Positions 1,390-42,968 of a DNA stretch of 64,000 nucleotides are shown piece after piece. Source of the stretch: Aurelia coerulea (lineage: Eukaryota; Cnidaria; Scyphozoa; Semaeostomeae; Ulmaridae); assembly GCA_039566865.1 (NCBI GenBank), contig CM076959.1, positions 7,175,501 through 7,239,500 on the forward strand, given 5' to 3'. A model generated the notes under the pieces. It had not been told where the DNA came from. It did no database searches and saw only the letters and a program-made list of their open reading frames with translations. Made by a program: the position numbers and the translations under genes. Position 1 is the first letter of the stretch. Each line of letters begins with the position of its first letter.

Positions 1390-1680
1390 TGGTTTGCAGT
1401 CCTTCTTAACTTTGATGTCGTCTTGTGCAACATCTTTCATTGTGTTCTTTTCATTGTTAATGTTTAATCACATTCTTCGTATGTTTTCGTTGATTGTTTA
1501 CATTTTGCTTATTTGTTATAACTGTACTATTGTTGATGTAGGGTCTTCTTTTTTGTTTGGTACATGTTTTGTTATGTTATGTTCTGTTATGTATGGGTGA
1601 ATGGTGGTTGCATTGTGGCCTATTGCCCCCTAGGACCAGCGGGAGGACTTCTGTTTGATGATGCCGGTTGAAATCAATCA

Positions 1681-4600
1681 ATGGCGAGCAACAATAGGGT
1701 GTTTTGTGTATCCATTCAAACATCGTCTCCCCTGTGTAAAAATATTCGGCCGTTCTCTTTTGTTATTCGCATCCTCAAGCTTTACTGGCTTTGTTGTTGT
1801 TTTATTGCAACTTCAATAATTGTTTTACCTTTGGTACTAATGATACAATTTCTTGCTGCCCACTCTGTGGAGGCACAGCTATGTTTCTTGCCTTTGTTTG
1901 CTCGCGTGCATCGCCTTGCGAAGATAGTAATTTACACGACTGTTGAACTTTTCAAGTGTATTCCGCATGCTGTCTTTAGTGTTGTTCACAATAATCGTTC
2001 AGCTGTCAAGCAATTTCTCTTTCTGTACGCGTATTTTTACACTGGATGCATAACTTGCTATACACTTCATATGCAATGGTTGGTTTTCAAGACGATTCTG
2101 CTAAGCGGTGATATAGAAATGAATCCTGGCCCTGAAACACTGGATTTTTGCACCTGGAATTTAAATAGTATTACTGCACATGACTTCTTGCGAGTTTCTC
2201 TCTTAGAGGCCTACAACTCAGTGTACAATTATGACCTGATTGGTATTGTTGAAACCCACCTTGACACCACTATCATTGAAGATAGGCTAGCACTTGATGG
2301 CTACACACTTTATAAAAGCAACCATCCTCAGAATGCGAAAAGGGGCGGTGTTGGGCTTTATGTCAAAGACTCTCTTCCTTCAAAATATCGTCCTGACTTG
2401 GTGACTCTCCCTGAATTTGTTGTATCTGAGATTCAAATAGACAGGAAAAACTATTTTTTTTGCCGTGATTTATCGTAGTCCAAGCCAGGACCCGAGTGAG
2501 TTTGATAACTTCATGGTAAATTTCGATCTATTGCTATCCAAGATACATGATGAAAATCCATTTTGTGTTATTATCACCGATTTCAACTGTCGCTCAACTC
2601 AATGGTGGGAAGATGATATTGAAAATAACGAGGGAAAATTACTTGAGCCTTTTGCTTCTGAACTTGGCCTTCAAATTTCAGAACCAACTCATTTAATTGG
2701 GGGTTCTAAATCTTGTATTGACTTGATTTTTACCAATCAGCCTAACCTCTTTATTGAATCTGGTGTTCATCCGTCTCTGCATGAACACTGTCATCACCAA
2801 ATTGTTTGTGGGATATTATCAGTTTCAAGCATAACACTACCCCCTCACACCCGCAGGATTTGGTACTATGACAAGGCAGATTTTGTTGCCATTATAAAAA
2901 GTATTGAAATGTTCAATAGGAGGGAGCATCTCAACAACATACCATGTCCCAATGAGCAGGTCAAATTGCTCAATGAAGTACTTTTGAACATTTATTCCAA
3001 CTTTATTCCAAACAAAATTAAAACAATTAGACCCTGTCAAGCACCGTGGATAACGCAAACTGTGAAAAACGTTCTGAGGAACAAGAGTCGTGCTTATAAA
3101 AGCTTTGTGAGGAATGGTCAACCGGACAATAAGCTTGCGGGGATACAAAATATGATATCTGAAGGTTCAAGAATGATTGAGGATGCAAAACGGAAATATT
3201 TTCTTAAGGCAGGCACAACCTTAGCTAGCCCTGGAACCCCTAGTAAAACGTATTGGTCCTTGATCAATACCGTTTTAAATAAGGCCAAGATTCCAATAAT
3301 ACCACCACTTTTAGAGAATGGGCTATTTGTGACTGACTTTACTAAAAATGCACAGTTATTCAATGATTATTTCATACTTCAGTGTACAACTATTGACACA
3401 GGCAGTGTAATTCCAGAACATAAACCCCTGACTTCTACTCTGATGGATAGCTTTGTTAACTCTGAGGAAAAGATACTACAAATCATACGATCACTAAATC
3501 CTAATAAAGCACATGGATGGGATGAAATATCTGTGAGAATAATAAAGCTAGGTGATACTGCATTAGTTGCTCCATTGAAGATAATATTCACAAATTGCCT
3601 CAGATGTGGTCTATTTCCCCGTATATGGAAGCATGCCTGTTCCTGTTGTGCCTGTTCACAAAAAGAATGAGAAAAATTTGAAGGGAAACTACCGTCCTAT
3701 TTCACTTCTTCCAATCTTTGGGAAAATACTTGAAAAACTCATGTACGATTCCCTATATTCACATCTTGTGTCATCTGAATTACTTAACCCAAATCAATCA
3801 GGTTTTCGTCCAGGTGACTCTACAGTCAACCAGTTGCTCTCAATAACACATACCATCTTTAAAGCATTTGATTGCAATCCTCCTCTTTATGTTCGTTCTG
3901 TGTATCTTGATATTTCCAAAGCATTTGACAGGGTTTGGCATGATGGTCTTATCTTTAAATTAACACAATGTGGCGTCTCTGGAAATCTTCTCTCTCTTAT
4001 CAAAAGTTTTTTCAAGGATAGAAAGCAGCGAACTGTTCTGAATGGGCAGAGTTCTTCTTGGGGAGATATTTTGGCAGGAGTACCCCAGGGCTCTATTCTA
4101 TGGCCCTTATTCTTCCTTGTGTATATAAATGACCTAACCGATGACCTAAAGTGTAATGTCAAGCTCTTCGCTGATGATACGTCATTATTTACGGTCGTTC
4201 AAGATTCAAATTCGGCCGCTAATGACATGAACCATGACTTGGAGTTGATAAGTCAGTGGGCTCATGACTGGAGGATGTCGTTTAATCCTGATCCACGAAA
4301 ACAAGCTGTGGAACTCACATTTTCAAGGAAAAAGATTAAAGCTGATCATCCAGAAATTCTTTTCAACAACATACCAGTAATGAAATTAGATGAACATAAA
4401 CACTTAGGAATCATACTAGATTTGAATATGTCTTTTTCTGCCCATATCAAATCAGCTATCTCCAAATCAAGGAAGGGTATTGGCTTGCTGAAATATCTCT
4501 CCAAATATCTGCCCAGGCATACTCTGAACGAGTTATATAAGCTCTATGTAAGACCTCATCTTGACTACGGGGATGTTATTTACCATATTCCGGCAAAAGT

Positions 4601-5498
4601 ATGCGAGTTCAGTGGTAGCATCATTTTACCGAGTTTGATGGAAAAATTAGAGTCTGTCCAGTATTCTGCTGCGCGAGCAATTACGGGATCATGGAGAGGA
4701 ACATCACAAGAAAAGCTGTACACAGAACTTGGCTGGGAATCGCTAAGCTGCTGAAGGTGGAGCAGACGCCTTACTTTGTTCTACAAGATCCTTAATAATC
4801 TAATTCCAGTCTATACTAGGGATCCAATCCCACCACTTCAACAGTTACATTGCTCTCTTCGCAACCAGGATGTTATTGGGCGAATAAAGGCCAGAACAGA
4901 AAACTTTAAGTCTAGTTTCTATCCTCATTGCTTATCTGAATGGAACGAACTTGATTCTGAGATTAGACTTGCACCGTCTGTTTCTGTTTTTAAGAAGAAA
5001 CTTTTATCAATAATTAGACCTCCTGTAAGATCTATCTTTGGCATTCATGATCCAACAGGTCTATCCTATCTCACTCAACTCAGGGTTGGTCTCAGCAAAT
5101 TAAACCTTCACAAATTCAACCACAATTTTAGGGATACCATAAATCCAATGTGCCCTACGAACGATGGTATCGAGGATACAGAACACTTTTTGTTGCTTTG
5201 CCCATCCTTTGCAGTACCACGCAGAGATCTTCTCGCTGGAGTTTTTGCTTTATTACGACCATTTGGATATACTAATATCCAAAATAACGTTCTATTGCAA
5301 ATTTTATTGTATGGTGATAAAGATTTTCCCAACGAACTCAATAAAAATATACTCCTTTTTTCTAGCATAGGGTATCAAACGAGGCACTTTTCTAGAGCAT
5401 GTTGTCAAAGCATGTCAAAAGGAAATATTCTGTTAGATCGGGTAGTTTTTCAGTCAAATTTCATGTTTTTGAGTACACTTTTCACCATTTTTTTCTAG
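1681..5498 (+). pseudogene. Broken LINE polyprotein: 2A-EN-RT
   Basis: The reading starts with about 139 residues rich in hydrophobic stretches, then a 2A-type motif (2098-2133), then an AP-endonuclease domain (FCTWNLNSI, IVETHLD, KRGGVGLYV, VIYRSP, ITDFNCR, HCHHQIV). The reverse transcriptase follows, with NYRPISLL, YLDISKAFDRVWHDGL (motif A), AGVPQGSI (motif B) and LFADDTSLF (motif C), plus a C-terminal region to 5498. Three lesions break it: a frameshift in the T run at about 2454-2461, a second frameshift near 3635-3650 and an in-frame TGA at 4752-4754. Motif B reads SILWP where SILGP is usual. The catalytic aspartates are present, so the copy probably died recently. CR1/L2-group placement is by motif style only. 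Confidence 0.8.
2098..2133 (+). other. 2A-type ribosome-skipping motif in the LINE
   Basis: Codons 140-151 of the first frame read LLSGDIEMNPGP, matching the D-x-E-x-N-P-G-P signature of 2A peptides, which make ribosomes skip the last Gly-Pro bond. It lies directly before the endonuclease, so skipping would release the hydrophobic N-terminal peptide from the EN-RT protein. 2A motifs are known in some non-LTR elements of sea urchins and other invertebrates. Activity here is inferred. Confidence 0.8.
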
Positions 5499-12005: not shown

Positions 12006-13098
12006 TGATTTCGCTCTGCACGTGGCCATTTCAGCGTGAAAACGAGATTTTTCTTTGAAGTACCTGCTGAGCACACAAGAGGCTCCCAACAAGGCATCCA
12101 CCAAGATTTTAAGCTGACAGTTTTTGCCTTACATTTATGATTCAACTTTTGATTTCAGTTAAGATTTTGAGTTCGTCTTGCACATTTTAATTTTTTATTT
12201 ATTTCGTATTGGGATTTTCTGTTTACGTTTGGATTTCATCTTGCTTTAGATTTGGTGTTGGGTGTCACATTCCCATTTCAAATTAGGATTTCCGTTTGTC
12301 ATTTTCGTTTAATCTCCATCTCGGCTTTCAATTTTTGATTGATTTCATCTTGTCTTTTTTATTTATGATTCAAATATGGATTAGGATTTCGTTTGATATT
12401 TCGATTTCGTCTTGCATGTCTTCCTTTCCTTGTGGATTTGATTTTGTGTTTGCATTTTGATCTCGTCTTGTACATTCATTTTAGATTATGCTTTTTATTT
12501 TGATTCCGATTTCATTTTGTGTTTTTTTCTGCATTTAATATTGTCTCGTGATTTCGAAATGCATTTTATTTTTTCGAATAGAGCATTTATACGAGTTTAT
12601 GATTTCGTTTTGTCGGATTTAATTTCCAAATGTGGTTTTTATTTTATGATTTAGTTTTGGCCTTAATCACACTTCATAATGAATGGACAAGAGAAAACTT
12701 TTTTGTGGTGATTTGGGATTTAGAAATCATTTAATTGTAAGCTGCTTTATGAGAGTTTGTACTCTATTGGGAGGCCATTTGTATTCACTGGCATTGGAAT
12801 ACTGGCATCGGCATTGGAACTGACATTGGCATTGGAATTGGCATTGATTATTGCATAAGTCCAAAAGTACTATGGCGCATGCAAAACTAACCAGGGGGTG
12901 CGCAACAGCGATTCGCGCGAGTCTCTATTCATTTTCACCCAATTATCTAACGTTAATGGATTTGAGCATTATGAATGAGGATTACTGATATTATACGGAG
13001 AGTTTTAAATCCAATAAGAGCATACCTGAATTGCTTAATTACTCTTTTATAGGAACACTTTGAACTGAGCTAACATTAAATTTTTTTCTGACTTTACC

Positions 13099-13379: not shown

Positions 13380-13668
13380 ATTTTACGTTAAAGACAGAAC
13401 AGAGCTCTTCGTAATTAAAAGTTCATCAGAGCTTGAAGTTTTAAACCTTGAATATCTTTGAATCTTGTGAACTTATACTTAATTTGACAGTAAAAGTTGT
13501 TAGTTTGATCGTGAAGTTACGTATAATTCGTTCACTTATTACCCTTATTGAGATACCCTGGGTACCAGACTCTCTAACATTTAAATATTAGAGAGTCTGG
13601 TACCCAGGGTCGGCACTAGATCATAGTACGCTAACGTACATGACGTCACATATTTTTTCAAATCGAGA

Positions 13669-13911
13669 TTAAAGTCATCTGTTGAATATGAGGCTGCTTT
13701 GAGTGTTCACCCAACACCCAAACACCTAAGGCATGTGGTTCCATGTGGGGTGCGTTGCGTTTTCTGCGGGGAAACTTTAACTCTGTTCAACAGCATTGGG
13801 AGGGGGGGATCAAAATTAACGTTAGTCCATAAGGTCGTAAAAATTACATACAGCTAATAGAAACTTACATTTGAATGATTCTATTTTGAGGTACTTTGAA
13901 GTACGTTGTGT
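13669..13911. other. MULE 5' subterminal region
   Basis: Lies between the left TIR and the TACTCTCGAG MITE. It would be expected to hold the transposase promoter, but no motif is clear enough to call. Confidence 0.3.
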
Positions 13912-13915
13912 AACT

Positions 13916-14215
13916 TACTCTCGAGTAGCGAATGATCCTACCCCGCTTATTGTCCCCCCCCCCCAATTTATTCCAACCCCCTTTTGTTAATTCTTGAAAA
14001 ATATAATGATAGTGAACATATTTTTTTAATAATTCCTGGCAAGCAAATGTACTTATGTATTTAACTGAGGTGAGCACTGCATTTGCTTAAGAACTATTCT
14101 CAATTCTTCCACCCCCTCCATTGTTCCAACCCTCGAGATTATTATCATATTAAACCATTTTCAACCCCCGTATATTCTCACCCCCCCCCCCCCGTTCATT
14201 CGGTACTCGAGAGTA
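13916..14215. mobile_element. TACTCTCGAG-ended MITE, 300 bp
   Basis: The ends TACTCTCGAGTAGCGAATGA and, on the opposite strand, TACTCTCGAGTACCGAATGA are near-perfect inverted repeats. The flanks AACT (13912-13915 and 14216-14219) are a possible 4-bp duplication. It includes long C runs. A relative is at 48620-48942. It sits just upstream of the MULE gene's first ATG. Confidence 0.7.
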
Positions 14216-14446
14216 AACTGATAGATATTGGATATGCTGACTCCGTAAATTGCTTAATACGCATTGGAATTATTGGAATGCCAAGATATCAGGTTACCAG
14301 GGTCGAATTACGTAATAATCGAATGATGCCATGCTTTAAGAATTACCCAAACTGGCAACAAATTAAACCCAAACTTGATTCGGATGAAATAAAATCGAAG
14401 CAGCAGAAAAACGAATGAACGACAAGAATCATTTCTGGGTGGATAA

Positions 14447-17400
14447 ATGGCCCTTTTAAGCGACGATGACCCGCAAGCCATGATAGCCGGCGAGCAATTG
14501 GTTTTCCACACAAAAGAAGAAGTCTACGCTGCTTTTGAAGCCTTTCAAAGAGAGACCCAAACTGGTTGGCGATGGTTCACCACCAGGAATTTGTTTGGTA
14601 TGCTTTTTTCAAACAGGTTCCTTATATGATATCTCCCTTTGTTTCTTCCTGCACAATTTCAGGATATTCGAAGATCTTTTATCTTACACGTACACTCACT
14701 CAGTTTTTCATAAGACACTGGCTCACTAGGTTACAGGGCTGGAGGAAATTTCTTAAATTTTAGGGGCCATTTTACTACTTCATAAACTTCATCAATAAGA
14801 ACCAGTACTGATTTTCGCTTCTTAATTTACGTCAAAACAAACTGGCAAATGGTAATTTTTTGTGTGCAGTTTACCGAAAATTTATTGGTCAGTGTTCGAA
14901 ATTTTGTTGAATCGGTGGCTGAGCAAATGAAAACTGCAAGTTACCGAGTTTCTCAGCTTTTTCAATTCAGATAGGATTCCGAAAAACTGAACTTCCCTTT
15001 ACTTATAGGCTGTTTCTTACACAAAATTTAGTGTATTACTTACAGATATTATATATATACGCATGCTAGATGAAGAGCATGGCCTCTCTTGCTCGTCCTG
15101 GAGCCTAGAAATTCTACTTCATACCCTTAACGAAACAAACTGTTGCTTCCAGGACAATCGGTTGTTGAAACTATCAACGTCTTGAAGGAGAGAAGCAGAG
15201 TGCACTGGAACGTTATCGCTACTGATGGAATTTCCTTTCCATTCGATGGGATACCATTTATCCCCGCCGGAATCGTGCAATTTCAATGCCACCAAGGTGA
15301 TGATATCGATGAAAAAACAAAAGAAAAACGAAAAACGCTCCTGGATGAACGCGAGGTAACTTAGATGATTTCATGATTTTTCATAGTTCTTTGACTTTCT
15401 GCATGACACTATCGGGTGAGTAAAAAAAGTTTACCCGTTTGGTGGGCCATGAAATAATATCGTATGCAGCTGATATTCAAAGCTGGAATTTCAATCTATC
15501 ATTCAAAGGCTAACTTAGATATGAAAATCTTGTTTGGTAAAAGTACTCATCTCTAAGATCCAAAAATTAGAAAAATGTCTGTAAGGGACATGTACACGAA
15601 CAAGAATTCCACATGGCATTCTGGTCCATGATTTAATTGGTAATGAAATCAACACTATATTTCTGAAACTGACAATCGTAGTGAACTCAAATTTCGATGC
15701 CAAATAAATCATGGTCCAGAATGGAATGTGGAATTCTGGATTCCAATGCAAACCCCTTACAGGCAATTTCCAAGTTTTGGGTCTCGCAGATGAGTGATTT
15801 TACCAAACAATATTTTCTGATCTAAGTTGGCCTTTGACTGGTAGATTAACACTTTAGTTTTTAATATCGGCCATTTAATTTTTATTGCACTGCCTGCCAA
15901 ACTGGTCTAGTATTTTGACTCACCCGGTGGAAACATTTCCATTGAGAACAAGGTGTCAGATAAACTTACATTTACTAACAGAGCGGGCAAAGTGACCCTC
16001 GTGACAAAGCTGTGGTATGTGCCTGTATTGAAAATTGTGCCAGGGAGACTACAGTATATAGGAACAATTCTACCCGAAATATTTTGTATCATATCAGGAA
16101 TTTTATGTGACAGATATTGTGACATGCTGTTTTTTTCGAAGGAACACGATCACACGTTCAGAAAAAGACGGACTCTAGTTCAGTCATCAAAAAAACTTGG
16201 TTGTCCAGCAAAAGTGTTCATGTCAAGAGTAATAAAGTTTCCCCAGTATAAGGTATGTAACAGAATATATAATACATATTGAAAATAGACAACAATGCCA
16301 AATATACTCAATAAGAGACTTTTAGAAACAGGCTCTGTGTAAACCATGTTAGTAGTTACGTTATAGTACTTGGGTTGTCGAAAAATTGAGAAATTTTTGT
16401 TGGGCTTTTATAACTGTGACTCAAATTCTAAGAAAGAGACAACAAATTCAACGAGGATCGTTCACGTTCTCCGGGTGCTAAATCCGTTGCACTGAAGCGT
16501 TTGAAAAAAGTAACAACACAAAACAACGATTCTACAAGTACATTTAGAACCTTTATTTACAGAAAATTCAGAATCTTTATTCTTAGAATCTTTATCTAAA
16601 TTTAGCGAAATTCATTCTTCAACAGGTTATGAACATAGTTTTCGTAGAATAGCCTAACCGAAAGGTCCTCATGCTGATATGCTGTACATTTTTATTTTGG
16701 ATACAGCAAAGGCCCACACCTTTATGAATCCACTTTGCAAGGAACTCTGATCCTGCCTCTTGCTACCTGAAAGACAATGATAATGATTAAACCTACCTCT
16801 TCTGCGTCCATGTTGAACCAGCTTTAATTTTGTCTGCATGAATACATGAATGCATGAATACGCATACTTAATGAAATAAAAACTTCTAGGTGGATCTGGC
16901 ACCGAATGGGAAAAAGCCGGAAAGACAAATGAGAGCTGCAGCGGCTAGGTTGAAAGGAGACCTACAACAGGGAAAGGATATTGAAACAGTTCAAGTATTT
17001 GTTCTCAAGCTGCCTGATGCTGCCGTCCACCAATTTCATGTCACAGAGGGAGAGGTAAAGTGTACATACTTCTTATTCTGTTCGAAATTAAAAGAGGCAG
17101 CTCGTGCGCCCGGTCTTCCTCCGGTGTGTGTTTTGTCAGTGTGAATGTGACATTCATATATTTTAAGATGCCTCCGAGGTTTCTATTTGAATTTTATTAT
17201 CTTTTAACAGGGTGCTGACTTAAGAGAACCCATCGATGAAGAAATCATGAAGAAGATCAAAGAGATGGACCATGTTGGAGTAAGGACTGTGTCTGAGGTT
17301 CGTCGACACTTGACCAATTTTGTGGATAATGAATTGTTTCGTGGAGAAGAACCACCTGCTCATTCAAGGCGACGATACCATCCTACAGATAACGACATCC

Positions 17401-20400
17401 GAAAAATATTGAGCGCCGCTCGATTGGGGGAAAGGAGAGCCCCAGATGACCAGTCAAACTTGGAGATAAAATGCAACGAATGGAAAATTTCCCATCCAGA
17501 TGATTTCATATTTTACAGGGTAAGAAATTAAAATGCAATTATTTACTGGCCCACAGTGCATAATTTGCTTGCCGTCTTTTCTGCTAAAACTATGCAAAAA
17601 GACGCCTGAACTGATATTGCGGTATCAAAAACATTTTTGTGACGATACAAAGACATTAAAAACAAGTATAGAAATATTGAAATTCTCTATCCGGCTGGTT
17701 AGTAGCGAAAAAGAAATTTCCTTGAATTGAAGTCGGAATTATCTGGAAAATATCAAGGTAAATGATCAACACAAATTTACTCTACTCTCGCTTTTCGGTA
17801 ATTTAAAATTTTGCGCAAAGGAAGAGCTTGTGTGATGCTTAGTTTTCTGACGTAAAATTTCCTATCAATCTCACAATCCCAGTTTGAAGGCCAATGCTCC
17901 CTGGACATCAAGGCAATGACACTGGCAAATATATCAATTGATAGCAGATAAGTTTCAAAAATTGAAGTATTACCTGACTCAAATCGGCAACTTCGCTCTG
18001 AAATTACGAGAGATTTCTCCAGAAAGCCCCCTTTCGGAAACCGTCCAAGACGCCATAAAATCACGACTAAATTTCCAAAATATTTTTGCCTTACACCAAT
18101 GACTCGCACATGCTTCAGCACGTGTTATCCCTTTGCGAGGACGATAATATGATCCCTGGGAGTATATCAACATCATTTTGTAAAATCTGTGCGTTTCTAA
18201 ACCGTCAATTTGACAACTTTTATATACCTAATTTCTAGCCTTCAGCATCAAAAAATCAGGCGGCGGACAAATTTATGTTCATTTATCAGGCAAACTGGAT
18301 GCAGCGCCTCCTCGTAAGATATGGCCAAGAGATGTGCCTCATGGACGCAACCTATAGAAAATGCAGGTAGGCTTTTTTACTTAAATTCTATCAACTGAGG
18401 GCATTACATGAGCATGAAGCTTGTTCAAGGCCAGTGTTGCAAGCAAAGGACGATCCATTATCCACTCAAACTAAGTGATCACAGGATCAAGTGATGTGGT
18501 CCCCTTAAACGATAGCTTATTTTTAAGACGGAGATAATGGTAATAGAATACCTTCCAAGCACGTACCCAGGTGGTGAGCCCTGGGAGCCGCCAGTCTTTC
18601 ATGGATTTTTTTAAACCAACCATTGTCTTTTTCATCAGACACTAGGATTTACCGAAATTACATGAAAGGAAACAATAATCGGCTCCCCTCTTTCAAGTTC
18701 TTGGGCAACGTCGCTGCTGTGGCTGATATGAGTAATATATACAACTTCTAGTGCAAATTTCTCTTCTGTTCATATTTAAGGTATGCGTTGCCGTTGTTCT
18801 TCCTGTGTGTCCGCTCAAACGTTGGCTATGTCGTAACTGCAGTATTTATTCCTGAGAATGAAGATATACCATCAATTTCAGAGGCCTTGCACTTGCTTAA
18901 AAATACAAATCCTCAGTGGCAACCAAGAAATATGATGGTTGATTTTTCGCTCGCTGAAATCGGGGCAATAGAGCAATGCTTTCCACGTAAGTATCAAATT
19001 ACAATGTTCATTTTGCTTGTAAACATGTACACTCTCAAATGTAAACATTCTGGTATCTCTAATTCTCAGAGGAAGGATGCATGGAAATATTGGTCAACAC
19101 GGTGTGCTTAGCAGCAGAGATCTTTTCTTACGAAATGAAATCCACACTGTTCCACACATTTAAGTCCAAAATGTATCTTTTCCAGCATATTTACATTGCC
19201 AAGACAATAGGAACGGCAAGGAGAGATCTTCAAGCTTACCTGCATCAAAGACGGGAAGGCAATTCTTGTAGTTTGAACGTGCTTGTCAAACGTCTTTGAG
19301 CATTTACCTCCTGGTAATTGAAACATAAATTTGCTTTAAAGGTTCCCAAACGGTATTTCAAAGTGAAAAGTTTGCCGAAACCCATCTTAGCAACGCTTTG
19401 TGGTAAAGATGTTAGAATATTATCAACACATCTTGTATCCTAGGAGCACATATTCACGTTTGCGACTTCCATCGTGAGAAAGCATGGAATGAGTGGGTGT
19501 CAAAAGGTGCTCATGGTGTCAGTGAGGCTAAAGGGGCGGTACTTGGATACCTCAGAAATATTGCAAAGAGCAGCAGCAAAGCAATGTTGGAGAAAAACAT
19601 TCAAGTTTTGAAGCAAAGCGAACCTTGGAAAAAGTCTGAGCATCTTCGAAAATACTTCGAATTCTGGGAGCTTCATATGACGGTATGTTTACTTAAATAA
19701 AACAATATGGAACGATTGATGGCTAAAAGTGGTACAGACTTAGACTTATGACGATGAGTCCCTTGTATCCATGTGGTACCTTGCTCTGTTGACTGAAGCG
19801 CCATCTTGAAGTCAAAGAGCACAGGGAAACAAGATACTCATCGTCATAAGTCTAGTACAGACCATCCCCAACAATTATCAATCTTAAAGGAAAACTGATG
19901 AAAGATGACCTTGAAAATAGTTCCATATGATTGACGCGGTCTACCGTGTATTAAACGTTCGGATATAGATGAAGTTGCTGGAAACATGTCTTAATCACTA
20001 TGCAGATAAATATTTCGCCTTTTCTTTGACGCATTAAATGAGTAACTAGCAAGTTATCGATGGTAAGAATAAATTTAGATTAATCTGATTTAGCAATACA
20101 TTCTAGATTACAAATTTAATGTGTCTGCATAAATGCAATTTCTTAACACGCCTATCTGCTTTAAACAAAAGTAACTGTTGTCTGCTTGTGATTTAAAAAA
20201 TAATAAAAATATCTGGCATGATCGTGGTAATGTATATAGAGCATAATCTCCTCGCATCTTTTGCTTCAATAAGGAAAGCCAAACACTTATTTAAGAGTTA
20301 TTATATCGTATTTTCTTGCAGAAATGGGTCAGGTTTTACAGAGATGAATCGTTGCGCGTAGCCATTTACACAAATAACGGCATCGAAAGGCAGAACAATT

Positions 20401-23400
20401 GGCTTAAATCTTCATACCTTGAAAGCAGAAGAAACAGCTCGATTTCTGACCTTGTTGACATCCTTTTGAAGCAGTTTTTACCAGATAGCTACAAGAAGTA
20501 AGTTAATTCGCTGTTCAATGTGTCTACCGGGTGGGTCAAAGAAAATTTACCATGTTTAGCTGGCTGTGGCCAATCAAAGGCCAACTTAAACGAGAAAATT
20601 TTGTTTGGTATAATCACTTTGCTTTTAGTCCACGAAGCTAGGAAAATGTAGGTATGAGGTTTGTATGGGAACAAGGATTCCATGTTCAATTCTGATGCAA
20701 GATTTACTTGCAACTTAAATCTAAATTCTGTTTCTGAAACTGACAATTGCATTGCATTCCAATTCCAATGGCAAGTAAATCATGGACCAGAATCGAACAT
20801 GGAATTATCGTTCCCACACAAACTCCTTACCAGCATTTTCCTAATTTTTGGCTCTACATGATGAAAGATTTTACCAAAGAAATTTCCACATCTTATTTAC
20901 CTTTGGAATTATACATTAACCATTTATTTTTTCAATATCAGCCACGTACTTTTTATTCCACAGCTTGCCAAACATGTTAAAATTTCTTGTCTCCCCCAAT
21001 ACAACATCAAAATTGCGTCTACATCTTTTGATAAATTAAGCCTAAAGGATCTGAACATACACGAGCAACAAAAACTTTACACGAGGGTCAGTTCAGGAAA
21101 CGTAGGACACACATGAGTAAAAATAAATTTTCAAGTTAGTTTAATGTTCAGAGTGAAGTTATCCAATGGTCAGCTGCATATAAATTTGGATTTAAATGTT
21201 AATCATATAATCAAATCTACCCATGACCGATCATTCTACTGTTCCATTGGAATACACAAGAAATAACGATGAAGATATTTTGAAGTAAGATCAAATAATC
21301 TGGGAATCAGACAAGGTCTGTGCTGCATGTCTTAAGAATGTTTTCATTTATCAGTCTCCGTGATAGTTACTGCAAAGTAGCTCAATTTTTAAATAGTTCA
21401 TTATGAAAATTACCCACATGACCCTACAATTCTATTCTAGGTACAAAGAACACAATATACAATGCTCAGATGCATACAAAAGATACGACAGCAGAATTCC
21501 GATATTCTTGCACAATCGACCAAAAAGTCTTGTCCAGCACATGATGAACAGAATGCATTCTAGCATTGGGCCTGCAAATATCACCAGGAACAGCGAGCGA
21601 CAGTTTACAGTAACAAGTGGCAGAGAGAAGTACCAAGATTGGTTAGGATCAGAAAGCTACTTAGCCTCCTGCCAATGCATGGATAACAAAATCAACAAAC
21701 TCCCATGTAAACACATCATTGCAGTTGTTCAAATGCCCGATGTAGGATGGGAAGCTCTTGGTACTAGCTTCAAGGATCACCCCCTCTTCACACTTGATCC
21801 TCTCATTGTAAAGTCAGTGAACGACAATTTGGATGACACAATTGTGTATGGTGAGCAATCGATTGACGAGGTGATACCTGATGATTGTCCTGATGATGGT
21901 CTTGATGTTTCACATGATGAGCCACCCGTTCCAGAAAATCCAGCTGTTCCACCTGTTTCAGGAAATAAAGACGAACCAGTCAAAGAAAAAATTATGTTGC
22001 CGATCAGAAAACGAAATGAAAAATCTAGATTACGAAGTAAGTGTGTTCAGTCATTAAAGATGCTTCACGATCAACTTTATTTACTTCAGGATCAAAATGC
22101 TCTTGCTCATACAGATGAACTGATAAATAAGATTCTGTCGTACACTCAAAAGCACCAAAGCAAGTCAAATGCACTTACCCTAAAGGACAAGACGTTGTCT
22201 CCAAAGAAAAGACGCAAAACGAGGAAGTACTCCACACAACATCTGCTACCAAAGAAACGGAATAGGTTCCAAAGAAGAGTTGGAACTGCTGCGGAAATGA
22301 GGAAAGCAAAGGTTGATGTGACAAGAAACAAGGGTGATAGAAGAAGTGCAGTGACTGAAAGTATAGATGTGGAATTATTGCCTGAAGAGCCAACAAGCGT
22401 TGACATCTGGGCAAATATCGATGGAGTCAAACTCACACACGAGCTAAAAGCAGTTCTTGAACATCCATTTGGGTGGCTATCCGATGAACATATAGATGCA
22501 GCACAAAATCTCATCAAGAAACTGGGAACTGGTGTCGGAGGTTTGTGAATTTAGTTCTGCTCTAAAGTTTCCACCATTCATTATCAAGCCAAACAACATG
22601 AAAACAACTAATTGGTCAAATGAGGCAAATGACCTTAATTTGAATATGTATGTGTTTATCATTTCAAGACAAGTAACATTAAAAGAGAAAACAAGTCAAT
22701 ATTACCATACTTGATAATTCTAGTTAGTGATAAGCATGGTGATAATTCAGTGATAATTATATTCAGTGATAAGCGTGGAAGAAGTGCACTATAATCTGAA
22801 GTCATGATTCTTTAAAGAGACGCAATCGCAAGTTTTTGGTGTCGGAAAATCTCAACGAGATTCTTCATGCATAAAGAAGAGACCTTGTACATTTTGAAAA
22901 CATGTTTAGTATTGTTGTATGATGGTAAAACGAAAGGAAAAATAAATGTAATTTTTTTCCCACACTTTTCTGCGGCACGTGCAAATAGACAATGGAAAGC
23001 AATAGACAAATTCTTGTGTTGCAAGTTTCTTTTCATAAATCTCGGTTTATTGAATTTTTGGTGATAAAGGTCTCTACTTTATGCACGAGGAATCTCATTT
23101 AGATTTTCAGACACAAAAAATTTACGATTGGATCTATTTAAAGGCACACTGTTGTGGTGCTGATTGGACAACGTTCAACAATATAATTATGCAGCCTTTT
23201 GAACAGTAATTTCCTTTTACAGATTCAGGAAGGTGATAATGATCTGACTCCTTTTATTCTTGAAACAAAGTATGATCCAAGAGTGTAAAGGCTGGGTAAT
23301 TATTCAAAGACAACATCTTTTGTTAGTGATTTCAACATCACAACTACAGTAGCCAATCACAGCCATGACAGTGCGTTTTTAAAGCCTAATGTGAATTTGT

Positions 23401-24415
23401 CTTCTCATCTAAATCATCAATGCACAAATTAATTCGAAAATTTTAGACAAATATGCAATAAATGATAATTTATCTCAAAAAATCTTTGAAAGAGCAATTT
23501 ACTTATGTTTCAATCATTTACAGTAGGTTTGCAGTAATATAATACACAATAACATTTAGAATAAGGTGGTTTGTCCTTCAATTTGTTTGGTTAAATTTTT
23601 TCTTAAGGCGGTCCTCCACTTGCATCAGTAGTTTCGGTCAGCGACGAGCGTGGTCACCTTGCTCGCATGCTCTGCCAACTAATAGTTTAGGTTGCCAACT
23701 AAAACTACTGCCGTGGAGGTCAGCTTTTAATTATTCTTTACACTGGATACAACCACGGACAGTCTAGTTTCATAAAATGAACATACCTTTTGCAGGACTG
23801 AACACTGTCACAGCCATGACTCATTACAGGAGAGTGACTATTGACCCCGAGTTAAATCAGACGATTCAGTGTCATAATATCGGGGGCCACTGGGTTACTT
23901 CAAGCACAATTACTGGCAAAATAATCGTGTATGAAAGTTTGTCAACTGGCCTTAATGATGCTTTGAAACGCCAGCTTGTCCATTTGTATAAGCACTTGGC
24001 AAAAGATGATGGGCAATTTGAGGTCACTGTAATTTTGCAGCAGCTTCAGAATGGAGGATGTGACTGTGGATTGTTCTGCATTGCAAATGCAGTTGCACTT
24101 GCCAATGGAAAAAATCCAGCATCCTTCATTTGGCAACAGTACAAGATGCGGGATCACCTTTCAAAATGCTTTGAGCAAGAGGCCATCAAATTGTTTCCAC
24201 ATATCTCCAAAATGGGTCATTGCAAGAAGAAAGTTCACCTTTGCAGCAAATTTTGCACTTGCTTGAAGCACATACCAACTGCTAAGATGGCCCACTGCAA
24301 TGTTTGCTCCAATCGCTACCACTACGATCAGCCAAGATGCATAAAGTTAACCATCAAGCAAGCTGCTGCACTTGTAACTGATGAGCCATTTGTCTGTCAT
24401 AGATGTGAAAGGTGA
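14447..24415 (+). CDS. MULE transposase fused to Ulp1-like protease and PHD-like finger
   Basis: Eleven exons can be chained with matching phase and GT/AG borders: 14447-14597, 15153-15355, 16142-16252, 16890-17054, 17211-17519, 18239-18366, 18781-18986, 19444-19682, 20322-20497, 21441-22540 and 23796-24415, giving about 1135 residues. The N-terminal part has a basic zinc-finger-like stretch (FRKRRTLVQSSKKLGCPAK). The DDE triad is likely D349 (LMDATYRKC), D410 (MMVDFSLAEI) and E526 (TNNGIERQNNWLK), with CDFHREKAW after the second D. A SWIM finger follows at about 640 (CQC...PCKH), then a coiled-coil-like segment and the basic run SPKKRRKTRKYS. WLSDEHIDAAQNLIKKL opens a Ulp1/SENP C48 fold that continues across the last intron with H961 (GGHWV), E976 (VYESL) and C1020 (QNGGCDCGLF). 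A C4HC3-like PHD finger ends the protein. MULE transposases cut and paste DNA; the protease would act on SUMO or a similar modifier in the nucleus. The start codon and the final splice are inferred. GAAAG/GTGAAT at the end could be another donor. Confidence 0.88.
15412..15927. mobile_element. Palindromic MITE in intron 2 of the MULE gene
   Basis: The left end TCGGGTGAGTAAAAAAAG and the right end, read on the minus strand as CCGGGTGAGTCAAAATACT, are inverted. The interior is also largely self-complementary around AATCATGGTCCAGAATG-type motifs. A related copy lies in intron 9 (20527-20999). Confidence 0.65.
19741..19854. mobile_element. 114-bp MITE in intron 8 of the MULE gene
   Basis: The inverted ends TAGACTTATGACGATGAG are perfect. 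The flanks GTACAGACT and GTACAGACC (19732-19740 and 19855-19863) form an 8- to 9-bp duplication, as made by hAT or MULE transposases. Confidence 0.82.
20527..20999. mobile_element. Palindromic MITE in intron 9 of the MULE gene
   Basis: Relative of 15412-15927: both contain TTTCTGAAACTGACAAT and an AAATCATGG-CCAGAAT core. The ends are CCGGGTGGGTCAAAG and its degenerate complement, with TA on both sides (20525-20526 and 21000-21001), suggesting a mariner-type origin. Confidence 0.65.
22832..23122. mobile_element. Short inverted-repeat element in the last MULE intron
   Basis: TTTTTGGTGTCGGAAAATCT at the left is mirrored by AGATTTTCAGACACAAAAAA at the right, and the match continues inwards through CATAAAG-AGAGACCTT. 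It sits between the transposase exons and the Ulp1/PHD exon. No clear target duplication was found. Confidence 0.6.
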
Positions 24416-25683
24416 ATGAACAAAAGACAATATAAAGTGTAGATCAAACAAATGTACGATACTTTCGTGTTGAAATTCAAACAACCTAAAATTAGAATTC
24501 AGATGAAATATATACCTCTTTCATAGTCTAACTGCTCAGTCCTACATTTGGTTGTCATAATAGACAATTCCCCCAATGACAGTATGAGAACTTTTCACAA
24601 AGATGAATTGCATTGCAATTTCTAGAGGGATTCAGTTATTAAAGATAATGCGGCCTTGTAAGTACAGCGATTTTGCGGGGGCAGGGCATGCCATTTTCAC
24701 ATGATATTTCATGTGATCTTTGGTAAAGGACCTCATTAGGTGGCAAGGAGTAATCCATTTATATGGAGTAATCAAAGCAGACTGAGGATTTTCTTGTGGT
24801 TGCGCTTTCAGAGATGGAATTTTAGTTTGCATGTGATCAGTTTAATCCAGCCAATCACAACGCCCTCTTTAAAAGGCTCTTTTGTCAGCATTGTATCAGC
24901 ATATTTTGACAGAATGTATACGTGCCTGTATTTACATGGATACATTGCCTTAAAGAACGCAGTGCATCTCATTTTGGTAAAAAGTTCCTTGCAGCTAAAT
25001 TTAGTGCTATTGTTAATTGGTTGTTTGTGGATGCTTGCTTAAGTGGAGAAGAATTTTTCTCTTCTGGACAACACACAAGTCTTGAGTCTTTGTGAAACAA
25101 AAAGGGACTAACTGTTCTGCTACTTCTATCTATTACTATCCATCAGCAATTAGACTCTCATGTCACAATACATGTAAGTCCAGTCAAATAAATGATTAAA
25201 TGGATTTCTTCATGTCAAAATTTGTGAGGATGCTCTTCCTTCTTGTTATTTTTAAAATGTAATTGGCCTTTTCGCTTTGGATTCTTGAATATTTGTTAAA
25301 AAAGCTATCTACCAAGAAGGCCTTTGTATGATCACACGTATTATTGCACATGAAGTAGTGTCCCGCATATAAGAAACAACCTTTTCCATTTCAGGTCTGA
25401 CATGTTTCCTATAAAATGAGGTAAAATTCAAATCAGGGTAAAGTTTCTTATCAGAAAAATCATGCACTATAGATCAACTACTCAGCTCTATGATTGCGAT
25501 AAGAAAACATATTATTTTTTTTTATTTGCATTTGTAAATTTTCACTTCCAGTAAATGATATAATTATTCCTCCGTGAAGGTGTTTTTTGCTTAGTTATGT
25601 AAAATATGAAACAAGGTTTTCTTCAATCTGTACTAGTTCCCTATAAAATGGGGTATTATTTTGAAAATCAGGGTCTATGTTTC
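24416..25683. other. MULE 3' region, no gene recognised
   Basis: Follows the stop codon of the fused gene. It should contain its polyadenylation signal; AATAAA-like words occur but none is decisive. A 100-residue frame (24740-25042) has no recognisable motif. Confidence 0.4.
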
Positions 25684-25862
25684 TTAAAGGGAATAGACAT
25701 AGCTATATCGACAAGCTGCTATAAATAGGCTCAAGAAACGCCCACAAACCCATTGTTTCCTTCGCCACACAATGAAACCGCAGGCGTCAAAGTTGTTGAA
25801 TACAATAGATTATATTTTTAACTTGGCCCGGGCCAGCTTTTAACTATGTCGATTCCCTTTAA
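25684..25862. mobile_element. 171-bp TTAA-flanked MITE
   Basis: AGGGAATAGACATAG at the left (25688) is mirrored by CTATGTCGATTCCCT at the right (to 25858). Both sides carry TTAA. This suits Kolobok or piggyBac-type non-autonomous elements. It lies within the MULE 3' region. Confidence 0.65.
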
Positions 25863-26717
25863 CTTTGTGTTTCTTATAATATATGCAGGCACTACTGTAC
25901 TATTGCACCATTCTTGAGTAGGGCCTAAGTCCCCATGACCATATTATTATTGTTTCTCTTATAGTTAGTTTAGTATGTTACCATATATATTACCTCAGCA
26001 AAAGTTACCAAACAGTGTCTAAGGCTAATAGAAATTGTGTATTATGACAAATAAAGTGTTCAACATACCAAAGAAAGTACTAACGATCTTATAAACGGAT
26101 CTTGTGCTGCCATGACCACAGTTAGTCTCCATCCATCGTTCGCCATCACGATCTGCCTCTATCCCATTCCAGGTCATTCTCGATTTGAAAAAATATGTGA
26201 CGTCATGTACGTTAGCGTACTATGATCTAGTGCCGACCGGTACCCAGGGTATTATTGAGACTACTCTGGTTCAACTTCAAAAGTTTGGTTCATTTCAAGA
26301 ATCATCATTGCTGAAAAATAAAATTGATGGCAGCATATTTTACAATCTAAAACACACTCTCGAATGACCTGTAATATGAAAATCTTAAAACCGCAAAATC
26401 TTGAAACCCAAAAACGAACATAAAAGCATCAAGCCCTCAACTCTGGGGGCAAAAATTGGCCAAACCCGCAACCCATCAAAGCTCAAAGCCCAAAGCCCTT
26501 TCACAGTATGAGGAGAATTGTCTTCAGCAATTATTGAATTGACAGAGTTTGTTCACTGTATTGATTTACTCGTACAAATTACTGTGACGGACCCCCTGGC
26601 TAGTTTTGCATGCGTCATAGTACTTACGCAATATCGATGCCAATTACAATGCCAATGCCAGTTCCAATGCCGATGCCAGTATTCCAATGCCGGTGAATAC
26701 AAATGGCCCTATTGGGA

Positions 26718-27176
26718 GAAATGTAATAATATTTTAAGGATATAAAGGAATGTATTTTCTTTTGTAATGTCATTGAATTTATGCTTTGGTGCAGGTTGTG
26801 TTCCTGTGTCAAGGGGGTTAACAAGACAAGCGAAAAAGCGTCATGGGGCCAGCGAGCATGGAGTCTTGCTACATTTTTGATTGTGTGACTGCTTTGGGGC
26901 GGTACTTTATTGTAACTACAACAGAATTTTGCAACAGGCCAATCGTTGAAATAACGCTCGTGCCGAAGTTTACAATAATCAATTTCCAAATCACGCTGAA
27001 AATGTTTTCCCTTTGTCCATTCATGTTGATTCTTTAGAAAATTTGATCAACGTTTTTGATGGTTTTCAGTGTTTTTGAAAACGAAAATATTAAGAAACTC
27101 GCTTGTAGCTCTAAAAAGTTAAAACGGAAAAATTTGTAAAAAATCCTAGAATCCAATTCAGGCTTTCTGCTATAGA
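26718..27176. other. No gene recognised
   Basis: Flanking sequence of MULE-MITE copy A up to the next foldback. Small open frames only, without motifs. Confidence 0.4.
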
Positions 27177-40051: not shown

Positions 40052-42968
40052 TTAAGGGGTAGCTTCACCACTTAAAGCAATAACTATAATAACATGGTTT
40101 GGATCTATTTTTGAAATGCTGAGATCAAGCAACCACAAAAGCTTAGTATCATTCAATTCTGCAAAGATTTTACTACTTGGGGGGGGGGGGAACTTGTGAG
40201 GTTTGACATATTTTACCAATTTTTGGGTGGGAAGTGTCAAAAAAATGCATTTTTGCGGCTCAAATTTGAACTAACTGCCTGCCACCCACAAAATTATTGC
40301 TTAAAACTGATCAGAAGTACCTGAATCTCTGCAGAGATATTGCTATAGCATGCAGCTATACAACTATTACCGTTTTCTCTCAAAATAGACTACCGTTGCT
40401 ATGGCAACCAGGATTAACGTTAGCAAAGTGAGCTCATCATGTAGATCAAAAAGTAAATTTGATATGAGAAAACCACCTAATAGTTGTATTCTGCATCCTA
40501 TCAGGATACTCTGTACAAAATTTGGGGTCAATGCAAGTATGCAAACCAAAAATAATCCTGGGGGGCAATTTTACTGTGTCCGAAAATCGTATTTTGAGAA
40601 AAACGATGCTTTTGCCAAACATAATACCTAAGTTTTGCATGACAGCATGCCTACCCGTTGCACCAAGATTGAACTGCAAAACAGCAGAACCAGCTGCAGT
40701 TTCTATGCTATGTAATCCCTTGTTCCTGCTTTTTGGACAGTGATTCCAAACTAGTGCATTTATCGATTCATTCACATTCTGGGAGAAACCAGGTAAGCAT
40801 CTTGCAAGCAGAGCAGGTGCGCTCAATCTTTCAAATAAAGGTGAGAGAAATCCCAAAAAAACTGGATCCAAATGATGTGGTTTGTTCTCAAGTGTTGTGC
40901 TTCCTTGGGCTTTTGAGTTTTGATATTGGCACCAAGAGTCCTTTGGACAGAATTGATGTCTCTCTTCCTGATTATCCAGTTTGATGCTATGATAAAGGAC
41001 AGCTTTTATTGCAGTTTGCATCCTTTCAATTGCTTTATCTTTCTGTTCTTTTGTTCTTGCATCTCTGTCAACTGTGCTTCGAATGGCATTACCATAATAT
41101 TTTTGTATTTTGTAAGTAACAGGCCTTGTTAGTCTACCACTGCGACCTCCAACAGGCTTTCCATCATCTAGTTTTTGTTTACTTTGCAGTGCTATCAAAT
41201 TTTTTCCCATTCGTTTCTGTACATGACCTATACAATCTAATTTATCCACACGGCCACATATAACTGTTTCTCTTGAATGATCATCAACGTACTTCTCGTA
41301 TGGTGCAGATTTCAGCCAGTTTTCATACCCTGAAGACTTTTTATTCATCTTTTCGTATTTTTCGCAGTCTTTACAAACGCGCGCCATAAACATTCCAGAC
41401 ATCAGAGTATGCTTTGCTTTCACCATCGCAAACCATCTTGCGATACCTAAACTTGTGCAAATCAACAGATCGTCCCCACAAAATCTTTGCTGCATCTTTC
41501 TCCATGGATGAACTTGATCCGTTATAGTTCTTCTGACAAAGACCACTGGATTCATGACTTTCCTTCCATTTTTGATATTGTTCTGGGTTATTTCTAAGCT
41601 TTTCCCCGGCTTTACATATTTCACACATTTTTGACATGACAGCATAATCAAGGACTTCCCCTGTGTCAGTAGAAATAACAAAGCCAATTCCAAAGTTTGT
41701 ACTGAAACCTCTCCTACTCCATGTTCCATCAAATGAAACTGCAACATCAATATCATCATTATCGTTTTGCCCCAATGTACTTCTTACACGCTTTGCTGCC
41801 TCTTGCGGCTTTTCCAGGACCGTTGCTTTTGTCACTGAGTTGACATTCTTCTTCTGTTTCTGAAATGCACTGTTGTGAATTGGTGGTGGCATATTCAATA
41901 TCTCACAAAATGTGGCAAGGCCTTCTCTCCCTAAACCAATTTCACCAACAGCAAAAACTGACCTTATGTTCACATCACTTGAAACAGTAGTGGGTTCTTT
42001 GCTCATTTTATTTGTATCCATGGTGATCGTTTTCCTGCAAACTGTACATTCAAAACAAATTTTACTACTCAGTCCTCTTCTTTTGGGCAAATCCTCTTTC
42101 ATCAGCATCATACCTCCCGTGCAGCCATGCATGCTCTCCAGAACCTTCCTGATATTCTCCAGGTATACAACCCGGTATCCTTCATCATCACCAGCAGACA
42201 CTTTAGCTATCACATCAGACCTCAAAATTCCAGTTTTAGGTGTTTCAGCTGTTTCATCTTCAGTTGCATTCCTTGCTTGCTCTATTTTCCTTTTTGAGGC
42301 AGAGGTTAAAGGACTAGCATCTTGTGAATCAGGATTTACCTGGCGATAAGGAGCTGCAAGATTAGGCCCAACATCAACATCAACATCTTGATCATCACCC
42401 TCACTCTGGGCAGCTGGCCTAAATTCACCTTATTGCTGGAAATTTGCATATCTTGTACCTTTGAAAAACTTTTTCTTCCTGCGACCCTGTGTTCTCACGC
42501 TAAACTTTCTTCCTTTCTTCGGCATAATGTGAGCAAACTGCCAAACTAGTATCACAGCACTTCAATTTGATGAAAATGAAACGAAAATGTCAAAGGCAAG
42601 AGCGATGAATTTGAAGAGCTGTGTGGGAGAAACAGAGGCATTACGGGATAGGAGAAGCCTCCATTGCATGTGGCTGCCACAGGGGGACCATAACATGAAA
42701 GCACAGGTGGGAAAAGAGGAGAGAACTGGGGGCATAGCCAAATGGGGATTGGTTTGATCATTGGTTGCCATAGAAACGAGATAAATTCTTCCATGAGAAC
42801 TGGAGCACCAAACTTAGAAATTATTTTTCAAGGCTTTAGAGCAATAGATTGAGGATACAGTGGCCAGCAGTTTGAAGTCCATATATCAAAATGATATAAG
42901 AAACAAAAAACAAAAATCTGGAAACAAATTGAAAAATTTAGATTTTAAGGAGTGAAGCTACCCCTTAA
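40052..42968 (-). mobile_element. Kolobok-like DNA transposon, 2909 bp
   Basis: The inverted ends GGGGTAGCTTCAC (40056) and GTGAAGCTACCCC (to 42964) are flanked by TTAA on both sides. TTAA duplication with G-rich ends and a Mutator-like-domain transposase fits the Kolobok superfamily. piggyBac also uses TTAA, but its transposase looks different. The single gene inside is defective. Confidence 0.82.
40446..42525 (-). pseudogene. Kolobok-like transposase with one stop and one frameshift
   Basis: The ATG at 42525 begins MPKKGRKFSVRTQGRRKKKF, a basic start typical of such transposases. Codon 32 is TAA (42430-42432), where the reading otherwise continues. A CxxC pair (CFECTVCRKT) follows. The core motifs are VSFDGTW (first D), MVCDGESKAYSD (second D), KLDCIGHVQKRMG and NESINALVWNHCPK (probable E). 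A one-base shift near 41385-41400 moves the frame just after the second D. The final frame ends at 40446. Apart from these two lesions it appears full length, so the copy is young. The Mutator-like (PF20700-type) domain name is from memory. Confidence 0.8.

Follow-up and report, generated by a model that had tools for sequence, protein, structure and literature searches.

A Mutator-like transposon of Aurelia coerulea with a spliced gene that probably encodes a transposase carrying CaRF-type, C48 and PHD-like parts

We analyzed a stretch of 64,000 nucleotides from the scyphozoan Aurelia coerulea (assembly GCA_039566865.1, contig CM076959.1, positions 7,175,501 to 7,239,500 of the forward strand; hereafter the window, in whose numbering positions are given). 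It contains a complete Mutator-like element (MULE), 12,631 bp long and intact in its coding region, located at 13608..26238 on the plus strand. This element is a recently mobile cut-and-paste transposon. Its coding locus is, in our judgement, probably one spliced gene for a transposase of five parts: a CaRF-type domain, a DDE RNase H core, a SWIM finger, a C48 protease-like domain and a PHD-like finger. Fusion of a transposase with a protease and a PHD finger is of a known kind, and the possible link of the CaRF gene to a transposase is the novel part.

Results

Gene structure and domains of the transposase

In-phase joining in silico of 11 exons with AG/GT borders yielded a protein of 1135 amino acids. 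All exons lie on the plus strand, and the intact frame of 1136 codons, interrupted by ten introns, runs from the ATG that opens exon 1 (14447..14597) to a TGA at the end of exon 11 (23796..24415). The strongest Pfam match of this spliced protein was to the CaRF/ALS2CR8 family (PF15299), named for the DNA-binding domain of the vertebrate calcium-response transcription factor CaRF, which covered residues 61-275 at 138.9 bits (cut-off 28.9, E 3.4e-40) and positions 4-226 of the 235 in the profile. This domain starts at 15182 in exon 2 (15153..15355), continues through exon 3 (16142..16252) and exon 4 (16890..17054), and ends at 17405 in exon 5 (17211..17519). It is followed by an RNase H-like/MULE core at residues 326-434, matched above cut-off by both PF21056 (ZSWIM1-3 RNase H-like, 45.1 bits) and PF10551 (MULE, 40.8 bits). 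The DDE motifs were found at residue 348 (MDATY, with the first Asp, at the RNase H-like core in exon 6, 18239..18366), residue 409 (VDFSL, with the second Asp, exon 7, 18781..18986) and residue 523 (NGIERQNNWLK). The third acidic residue was placed by motif, and the candidate catalytic Glu lies within NNGIERQNNWLK in exon 9 (20322..20497); the MULE match itself ends in exon 8 (19444..19682). Exon 10 (21441..22540) contains the SWIM finger (21664-21732; PF04434, residues 638-660, 22.7 bits, above cut-off), a linker and the first part of the C48 domain. The catalytic part of that domain and the PHD-like finger (24233-24412) are encoded by exon 11.

A first-pass annotation of this DNA had proposed that eleven in-phase exons join a DDE MULE transposase and a SWIM finger to a C48 domain and a PHD-like finger, and exon borders, phase, Pfam matches and relatives agree with that layout. 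It had correctly seen a MULE with C48 and PHD-like parts. What escaped it were the CaRF domain, the ends of the element, its sister families and the shorter elements that share those ends. The span it gave, 14447..24415, holds as the coding region; the mobile element is larger. Among the domains that it named, MULE and SWIM scored above their cut-offs in profile searches, the C48 match was marginal, and the PHD finger was unmatched in the window protein. The Pfam matches of the window protein did not include an integrase model, and NCBIfam assigned no family to any of three proteins. When residues 600-1135 were compared with a protein database, none of 8000 scored candidates reached E<=0.001, a result that says little on distribution because the animal content of the database is uncertain. 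Two matches of exon 11 among the 50,697 records of a phage collection (tblastn, E 0.4) were set aside as chance.

Ends, target duplications and copies of the element

The element is bounded by perfect terminal inverted repeats (TIRs) of 61 bp, at 13608..13668 on the plus strand, where the repeat includes TGACGTCA, and at 26178..26238 on the minus strand. They are flanked by a 9-bp target site duplication (TSD), GGTACCCAG, at 13599..13607 on the left and 26239..26247 on the right (both plus strand). The same borders are found in the copies on C5 and C22, which match the window over 13608-26238 at >99% identity, and a separate 9-bp duplication accompanies every one of the three insertions (read by eye for C5 and C22). 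Among five copies including that of the window, exon 10 is 99-100% identical at the amino-acid level. The window and C5 copies have an intact coding sequence with all splice sites; the C22 copy shows frame changes, as do two C7 copies, both of which are also interrupted and incomplete at one end. The DDE domain, the 61-bp TIRs and a TSD of 9 bp, within the 8-11 bp range, place the element in the Mutator superfamily.

A 15-mer from the TIR, GGCACTAGATCATAG, occurred at 76 sites genome-wide compared with 0 for a reversed-pattern control. Judging by position, many of these sites pair up to delimit 0.6-1.5 kb elements, some delimit 3- or 7-kb elements, and others flank two sister families. Comparison of both ends by script revealed a perfect 9-bp TSD in 7 of 12 elements, the window element included; none was found for the remaining five (C5fam, C5m947, C9a, C9b and C9m1.2). 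Three examples from the 0.6-7 kb class with window-type TIRs and perfect 9-bp TSDs are located at C5:9600356-9601866, C1:21118491-21119116 and C9:6548333-6555518. The short and mid-size elements with window TIRs are possibly mobilised in trans.

Several further features were noted in and around the element. The octamer TGACGTCA (window 13641-13648) is a perfect cAMP-response element; of the 24 ends read, 11 have it at position 34. The left target duplication is at the edge of a 56-bp near-perfect palindrome (13555-13610), indicating that a small palindromic repeat, or sequence next to it, was the insertion site. Two introns contain related inverted repeats of ~400-500 bp with ~72-73% identity (15413-15926 and 20571-20973), which are also present in the four other copies. 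Another repeat, containing an 18-bp minisatellite, has inverted copies outside the TIRs on both sides (12674-12922 and 26568-27029).

A GAGGC core near the element ends

The CaRF sites given by Pfenning et al. 2010 (PMC2877716), in the portion of that paper available, are YSANAACGAGGC and RRARYGAGGC. Just inside the TIRs of the window element we found AATATGAGGC (13685..13694, plus strand), whose CaRF-type core GAGGC starts 83 bp from the left end, and GGATAGAGGC (26155..26164, minus strand), whose core starts 80 bp from the right end. This second site is the single occurrence in the whole element of RNANNGAGGC, the form predicted from the accessible part of PMC2877716 to bind CaRF strongly. 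Inside the TIRs, the end types of the wider group are 45-69% identical, and among the 5-mers there GAGGC has the widest sharing. In one orientation it was found at 80-92 bp in 6 of 10 end types, a share equaled over a longer stretch by the overlapping AGGCT. In either orientation it was found in 8 of 11 end types, starting 70-93 bp from the end; this put it at the top of all 5-mers, and in none of 5000 shuffles did any 5-mer match such sharing. When all ends were considered, 41 of 76 had GAGGC in direct orientation, 18 had it inverted, none was in both lists and 17 were in neither.

Several points weigh against reading this core as a recognition site. GAGGC was not found in the scanned stretch of three of the 11 end types (C5_L, C1_R and C9m_R), and the count could fall to 7 of 11, since GAGGC is present in the C9_L copy that was counted but falls outside the stretch in the sister copy C9b_L. 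Its orientation varies, as the 18 inverted ends attest, and only 4 of 10 end types satisfy RNANNGAGGC (by eye). The end types share ancestry, so that the shuffle test overstates their independence, and the test was post hoc, having been designed once three ends were already known. Finally, the 32 of the 41 direct ends with readable letters all belong to six end types already read; the other nine have no readable letters. Two related ideas were abandoned. One placed a CaRF-like site (AAATCGAGAT, 7 of 10 positions) where the TIR ends on its inner side, but 188 of 1049 61-bp segments of the window reached that score; the subterminal GAGGC took its place, which is why the later tests are post hoc. 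A single orientation of the motif was ruled out by the 18 inverted ends. We propose that the CaRF-type domain may recognise the element ends, a proposal for which the shared GAGGC would be good but not conclusive support.

Distribution and possible origin of the CaRF domain

Scoring of 150 out of 204 candidates in the genome gave 116 CaRF matches in 63 clusters. A MULE, exon-10 or exon-11 match was present within 15 kb of 50 of these clusters; genome-wide counts of exon-10, exon-11, CaRF and MULE loci here and below refer to the matches listed and are lower bounds. On the eight contigs used for a random-placement control, 45 of 57 clusters were near such matches compared with the 3.6% expected. 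At least two of the 13 lone clusters (C22:4559157 and C17:4539189) are less than 2 kb from TIR 15-mer ends and are thus pieces of the window family. A different situation was observed at the lone cluster C2:8994767 (locus L059, C2:8994300-8997000, minus strand). Its CaRF part, 28.6% identical to window residues 15-224 (E 9.5e-17), is in frame with an N-terminal part of diphosphomevalonate decarboxylase (PF22700), and the locus looks like a retroposed chimeric transcript.

According to the available portion of Pfenning et al. 2010 (PMC2877716), CaRF is a unique protein without homologues, encoded by a conserved gene found once in each species examined. It shares membership of PF15299 with the window domain, and its published core GAGGC recurs near the element ends; the window domain, unlike the CaRF described there without relatives, is part of a mobile transposase. 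Among open-access titles and the beginnings of abstracts, we found no paper linking CaRF/ALS2CR8 to a transposase or to transposable elements, and in the part of PMC5454887 at hand ALS2CR8 is a row of a LINE1 table.

We tentatively propose that CaRF is possibly a domesticated MULE domain, its GAGGC core inherited from subterminal sites of transposons that would also have carried an onboard deSUMOylase or deubiquitinase and a chromatin reader in one polypeptide. The reverse path, in which the host gene CaRF was captured by MULEs, is possible too but somewhat doubtful. Conservation of CaRF as a gene present once per species would suit such a capture, as would the tendency of MULEs to acquire host gene fragments noted in the available text of PMC6446971. 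Against it, the majority of CaRF clusters (50 of 63) are near MULE-type matches, families only 43-48% identical have the domain in common, and the core site of CaRF recurs near the element ends. Its presence in families this divergent, together with the proximity to MULE matches, indicates that the CaRF domain is an old, standard part of the transposase.

The C48 protease-like domain and the PHD-like finger

Depending on the member, cysteine proteases with the C48 (Ulp1/SENP) fold process SUMO, NEDD8 or ubiquitin. The sole PDB match of exon 11 was the Ulp1-like SUMO protease 6dg4 (E 3.3e-4), and the C48 part of a profile built from seven aligned sequences led to SENP1, Ulp1, OtDUB and other ULP-type proteases, SENP1 and OtDUB being about equally close. 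PF02902 matched five of the seven alignment members at E<=0.01. The catalytic set of the window protein consists of His961, Glu976 at the Asp position, Gln1014 and Cys1020, and the His, Gln and Cys are invariant in all seven sequences. We infer that the window C48 domain may be an active isopeptidase. Two observations run counter to this. On exon 11 alone PF02902 reached 19.6 bits, below its cut-off of 20.7 (E 8.6e-4), and the window departs from the His-Asp-Gln-Cys set, with Glu where all six relatives have Asp. For the full-length window protein C48 was not listed by Pfam at E<=1. A structure prediction for exon 11 alone gave a mean predicted local distance difference test score (pLDDT) of 40 and was unusable.

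The same two observations, and the similar score of a YopJ-like model on exon 11 (PF03421, 20.3 bits, below its cut-off of 24.4), would fit a domain that is no longer a protease in the window family and instead binds SUMO or ubiquitin, tethering the transposase to modified chromatin proteins. We regard such a binding module as unlikely: Glu sometimes substitutes for Asp in triads of this type, the His, Gln and Cys are retained, and between families the C48 domain changes less than the linker.

This last point was examined together with the other domains. As synonymous differences between families ranged from 0.77 to 0.96 (proportion, pS) and dS was saturated, proportions of nonsynonymous differences (pN) were compared in place of dN/dS. 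The pN values were 0.23 and 0.31 for C48, 0.27 and 0.25 for PHD, 0.41 and 0.44 for the linker, 0.25-0.29 for CaRF, and 0.18 and 0.21 for the MULE domain. The amino-acid change in C48 and PHD is thus below that of the linker and slightly above that of the MULE core, a pattern to be expected under selection for their retention, and both probably matter to the element.

The PHD-like finger was identified through its relatives. Neither the full-length window protein nor exon 11 matched PF00628 or any other Pfam PHD model. PF00628 was matched at E<=0.01 by two of the seven alignment members, locus L053 reached 25.4 bits with this model (cut-off 24.0), and the last part of the seven-sequence profile led to the PHD fingers of PHF2, DIDO1, PHF8 and BPTF. 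All eight Cys4-His-Cys3 ligands could be read by eye in the window finger when aligned with L053 and L054. L053 retains the Trp that precedes Phe-His in DIDO1, and the window finger has Arg-Tyr-His there. The Trp of a PHD finger serves the reading of H3K4me3, so reading of this mark by the window finger is doubtful. The first-pass annotation had suggested that the element may strip SUMO from silencing proteins and read chromatin marks. Such deSUMOylation and mark reading are hypothetical: the window C48 has Glu at the Asp position, the profile is about equally close to SENP1 and OtDUB, and the finger is without the Trp.

Fusion across exons 10 and 11

As the first-pass annotation had it, the C48 domain is divided between two exons, with WLSDEH at residue 908 (22474) in exon 10 and GHW at residue 960 (23885) in exon 11. 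We found that the intervening intron is missing in both sister families, where a single tblastn alignment spans the junction: residues 563-1134 at 48% identity in the C5 family and residues 549-1134 at 43% identity in the C9 family. The junction is inside an open frame of 399 aa in the former and 542 aa in the latter. The blocks of the window protein occur in the same order in both families, the C9 family having no match to residues ~159-214. Four more distant loci (L053-L056) have open reading frames (ORFs) of 617-722 aa that combine SWIM and C48, and those of L053 and L054 (722 and 648 aa) unite SWIM, C48 and PHD; the scores for SWIM in L053, L055 and L056, and for C48 and PHD in L054, are below cut-off. 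Neither sister-family copy is itself intact, as a stop interrupts the linker of the C5 family copy and another precedes the PHD part of the C9 family copy, which counts against the overall reading.

An exon-11 match was present within 15 kb of 50 of the 58 exon-10 loci genome-wide, indicating that the pairing is not due to chance, and 41 of the 58 had both an exon-11 and a CaRF match nearby. Among the C48-matching loci listed, 67 of 119 had no SWIM, CaRF or MULE match nearby; C48 is therefore common elsewhere in the genome too. These lone loci (for example C1:24891843 and C13:9169384), several of which are in ORFs near 1000 aa, may be other C48-bearing elements or genes.

Cumulatively, the intron-free alignments in two families and the single ORFs with SWIM, C48 and PHD support a real fusion of exons 10 and 11. 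It is very unlikely that exon 11 forms a gene or ORF of its own, joined only by conceptual splicing across the 1.25-kb intron of the window family, given the intron-free junction in two other families and the SWIM-C48 ORFs at four further loci. A domesticated host gene in place of a transposon is least probable of all. The 1136-codon frame is intact and interrupted by ten introns, as such a gene might be, but this reading conflicts with the perfect TIRs, the 9-bp TSDs, the near-identical copies at unrelated sites, the broken sister copies and the shorter elements whose ends match.

Other features of the window

Elsewhere, the window contains overlapping-frame ORFs for an endonuclease and a reverse transcriptase of the non-LTR retrotransposon type (1672-4754) and an ORF encoding a zinc finger of the C17orf113 type (PF25431, 6202-6867). 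A second, distinct Mutator-like transposase (PF20700, two overlapping frames, 40446-42429) and an IS1595-type transposase domain (PF12762, 60588-61487) are on the minus strand.

Discussion

We favor the following scheme as the likely working of the five-part transposase. The N-terminal CaRF-type domain would dock on the TIR and subterminal region, where a GAGGC core starts 70-93 bp from the end in most end types, and the DDE core would make 9-bp staggered cuts and joins. Brought along in the same protein, the C48 domain may strip SUMO-like or ubiquitin-like tags from the transposase itself or from chromatin proteins of the donor or target, and the PHD finger may keep the complex on chromatin. 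The parts of this scheme that we infer are binding of the ends by the CaRF-type domain, isopeptidase activity of C48, the substrate of that activity and what the PHD finger does.

Proteases of this type accompany other transposases. Animal transposases of the Zisupton/KDZ group have SWIM and Ulp1-like parts and belong to a different transposase superfamily. Plant ULP-MULEs, called Kaonashi in the first-pass annotation, reportedly link a MULE to an Ulp1-like protease (Hoen et al. 2006; van Leeuwen et al. 2007), as the window element does; these are plant elements, and the likeness is one of description.

The first-pass annotation knew of no described animal fusion of this layout. For the most part this novelty is not borne out, as Mutator (MuDR) elements with Ulp1 from Hydra and Branchiostoma, hydra and lancelet, respectively, are listed in the available text of Bao et al. 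2010 (PMC2836005, citing Repbase Reports) and are likewise animal Mutators encoding Ulp1. Figure 1e of that paper, as far as its available text describes it, aligns the Ulp1 and PHD parts of Ginger1 and Mutator transposases, and its table 1 includes Ginger1-9_HM, a cnidarian transposase with C-terminal Ulp1 and PHD parts like those of the window protein. Ginger1, however, has a transposase of the Gypsy-integrase type and 4-bp CCGG/CCGT duplications, whereas the window element has a MULE core and 9-bp duplications. Rehavkus, as presented in the accessible part of the 2019 MULE survey (PMC6446971), resembles the window element in its 9-bp duplication, its TIRs and a PHD finger in the transposase. 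It differs in that the survey's table gives no protease for it and in having a minisatellite before the 3' TIR; no tandem array was found at the corresponding place in the window (24416-26238). In the main text of the survey as available, 'ulp', 'peptidase' and 'sumo' do not occur, PHD is named for Rehavkus, and an ovarian-tumour domain is mentioned in one Hydra element.

Compared with these systems, the protease-PHD fusion of the window element is a known kind of arrangement, and one that is common in a MULE radiation of this genome, as seen at 50 of 58 SWIM-exon loci among the matches listed. What is novel is the possible origin of CaRF. The link of CaRF to these transposases may hint at where an orphan regulator of nerve-cell genes came from and makes that origin testable. 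If true, descent from a transposase would explain both the orphan domain of CaRF and its site, in a manner comparable to FAR1/FHY3, which reportedly arose from plant MULEs.

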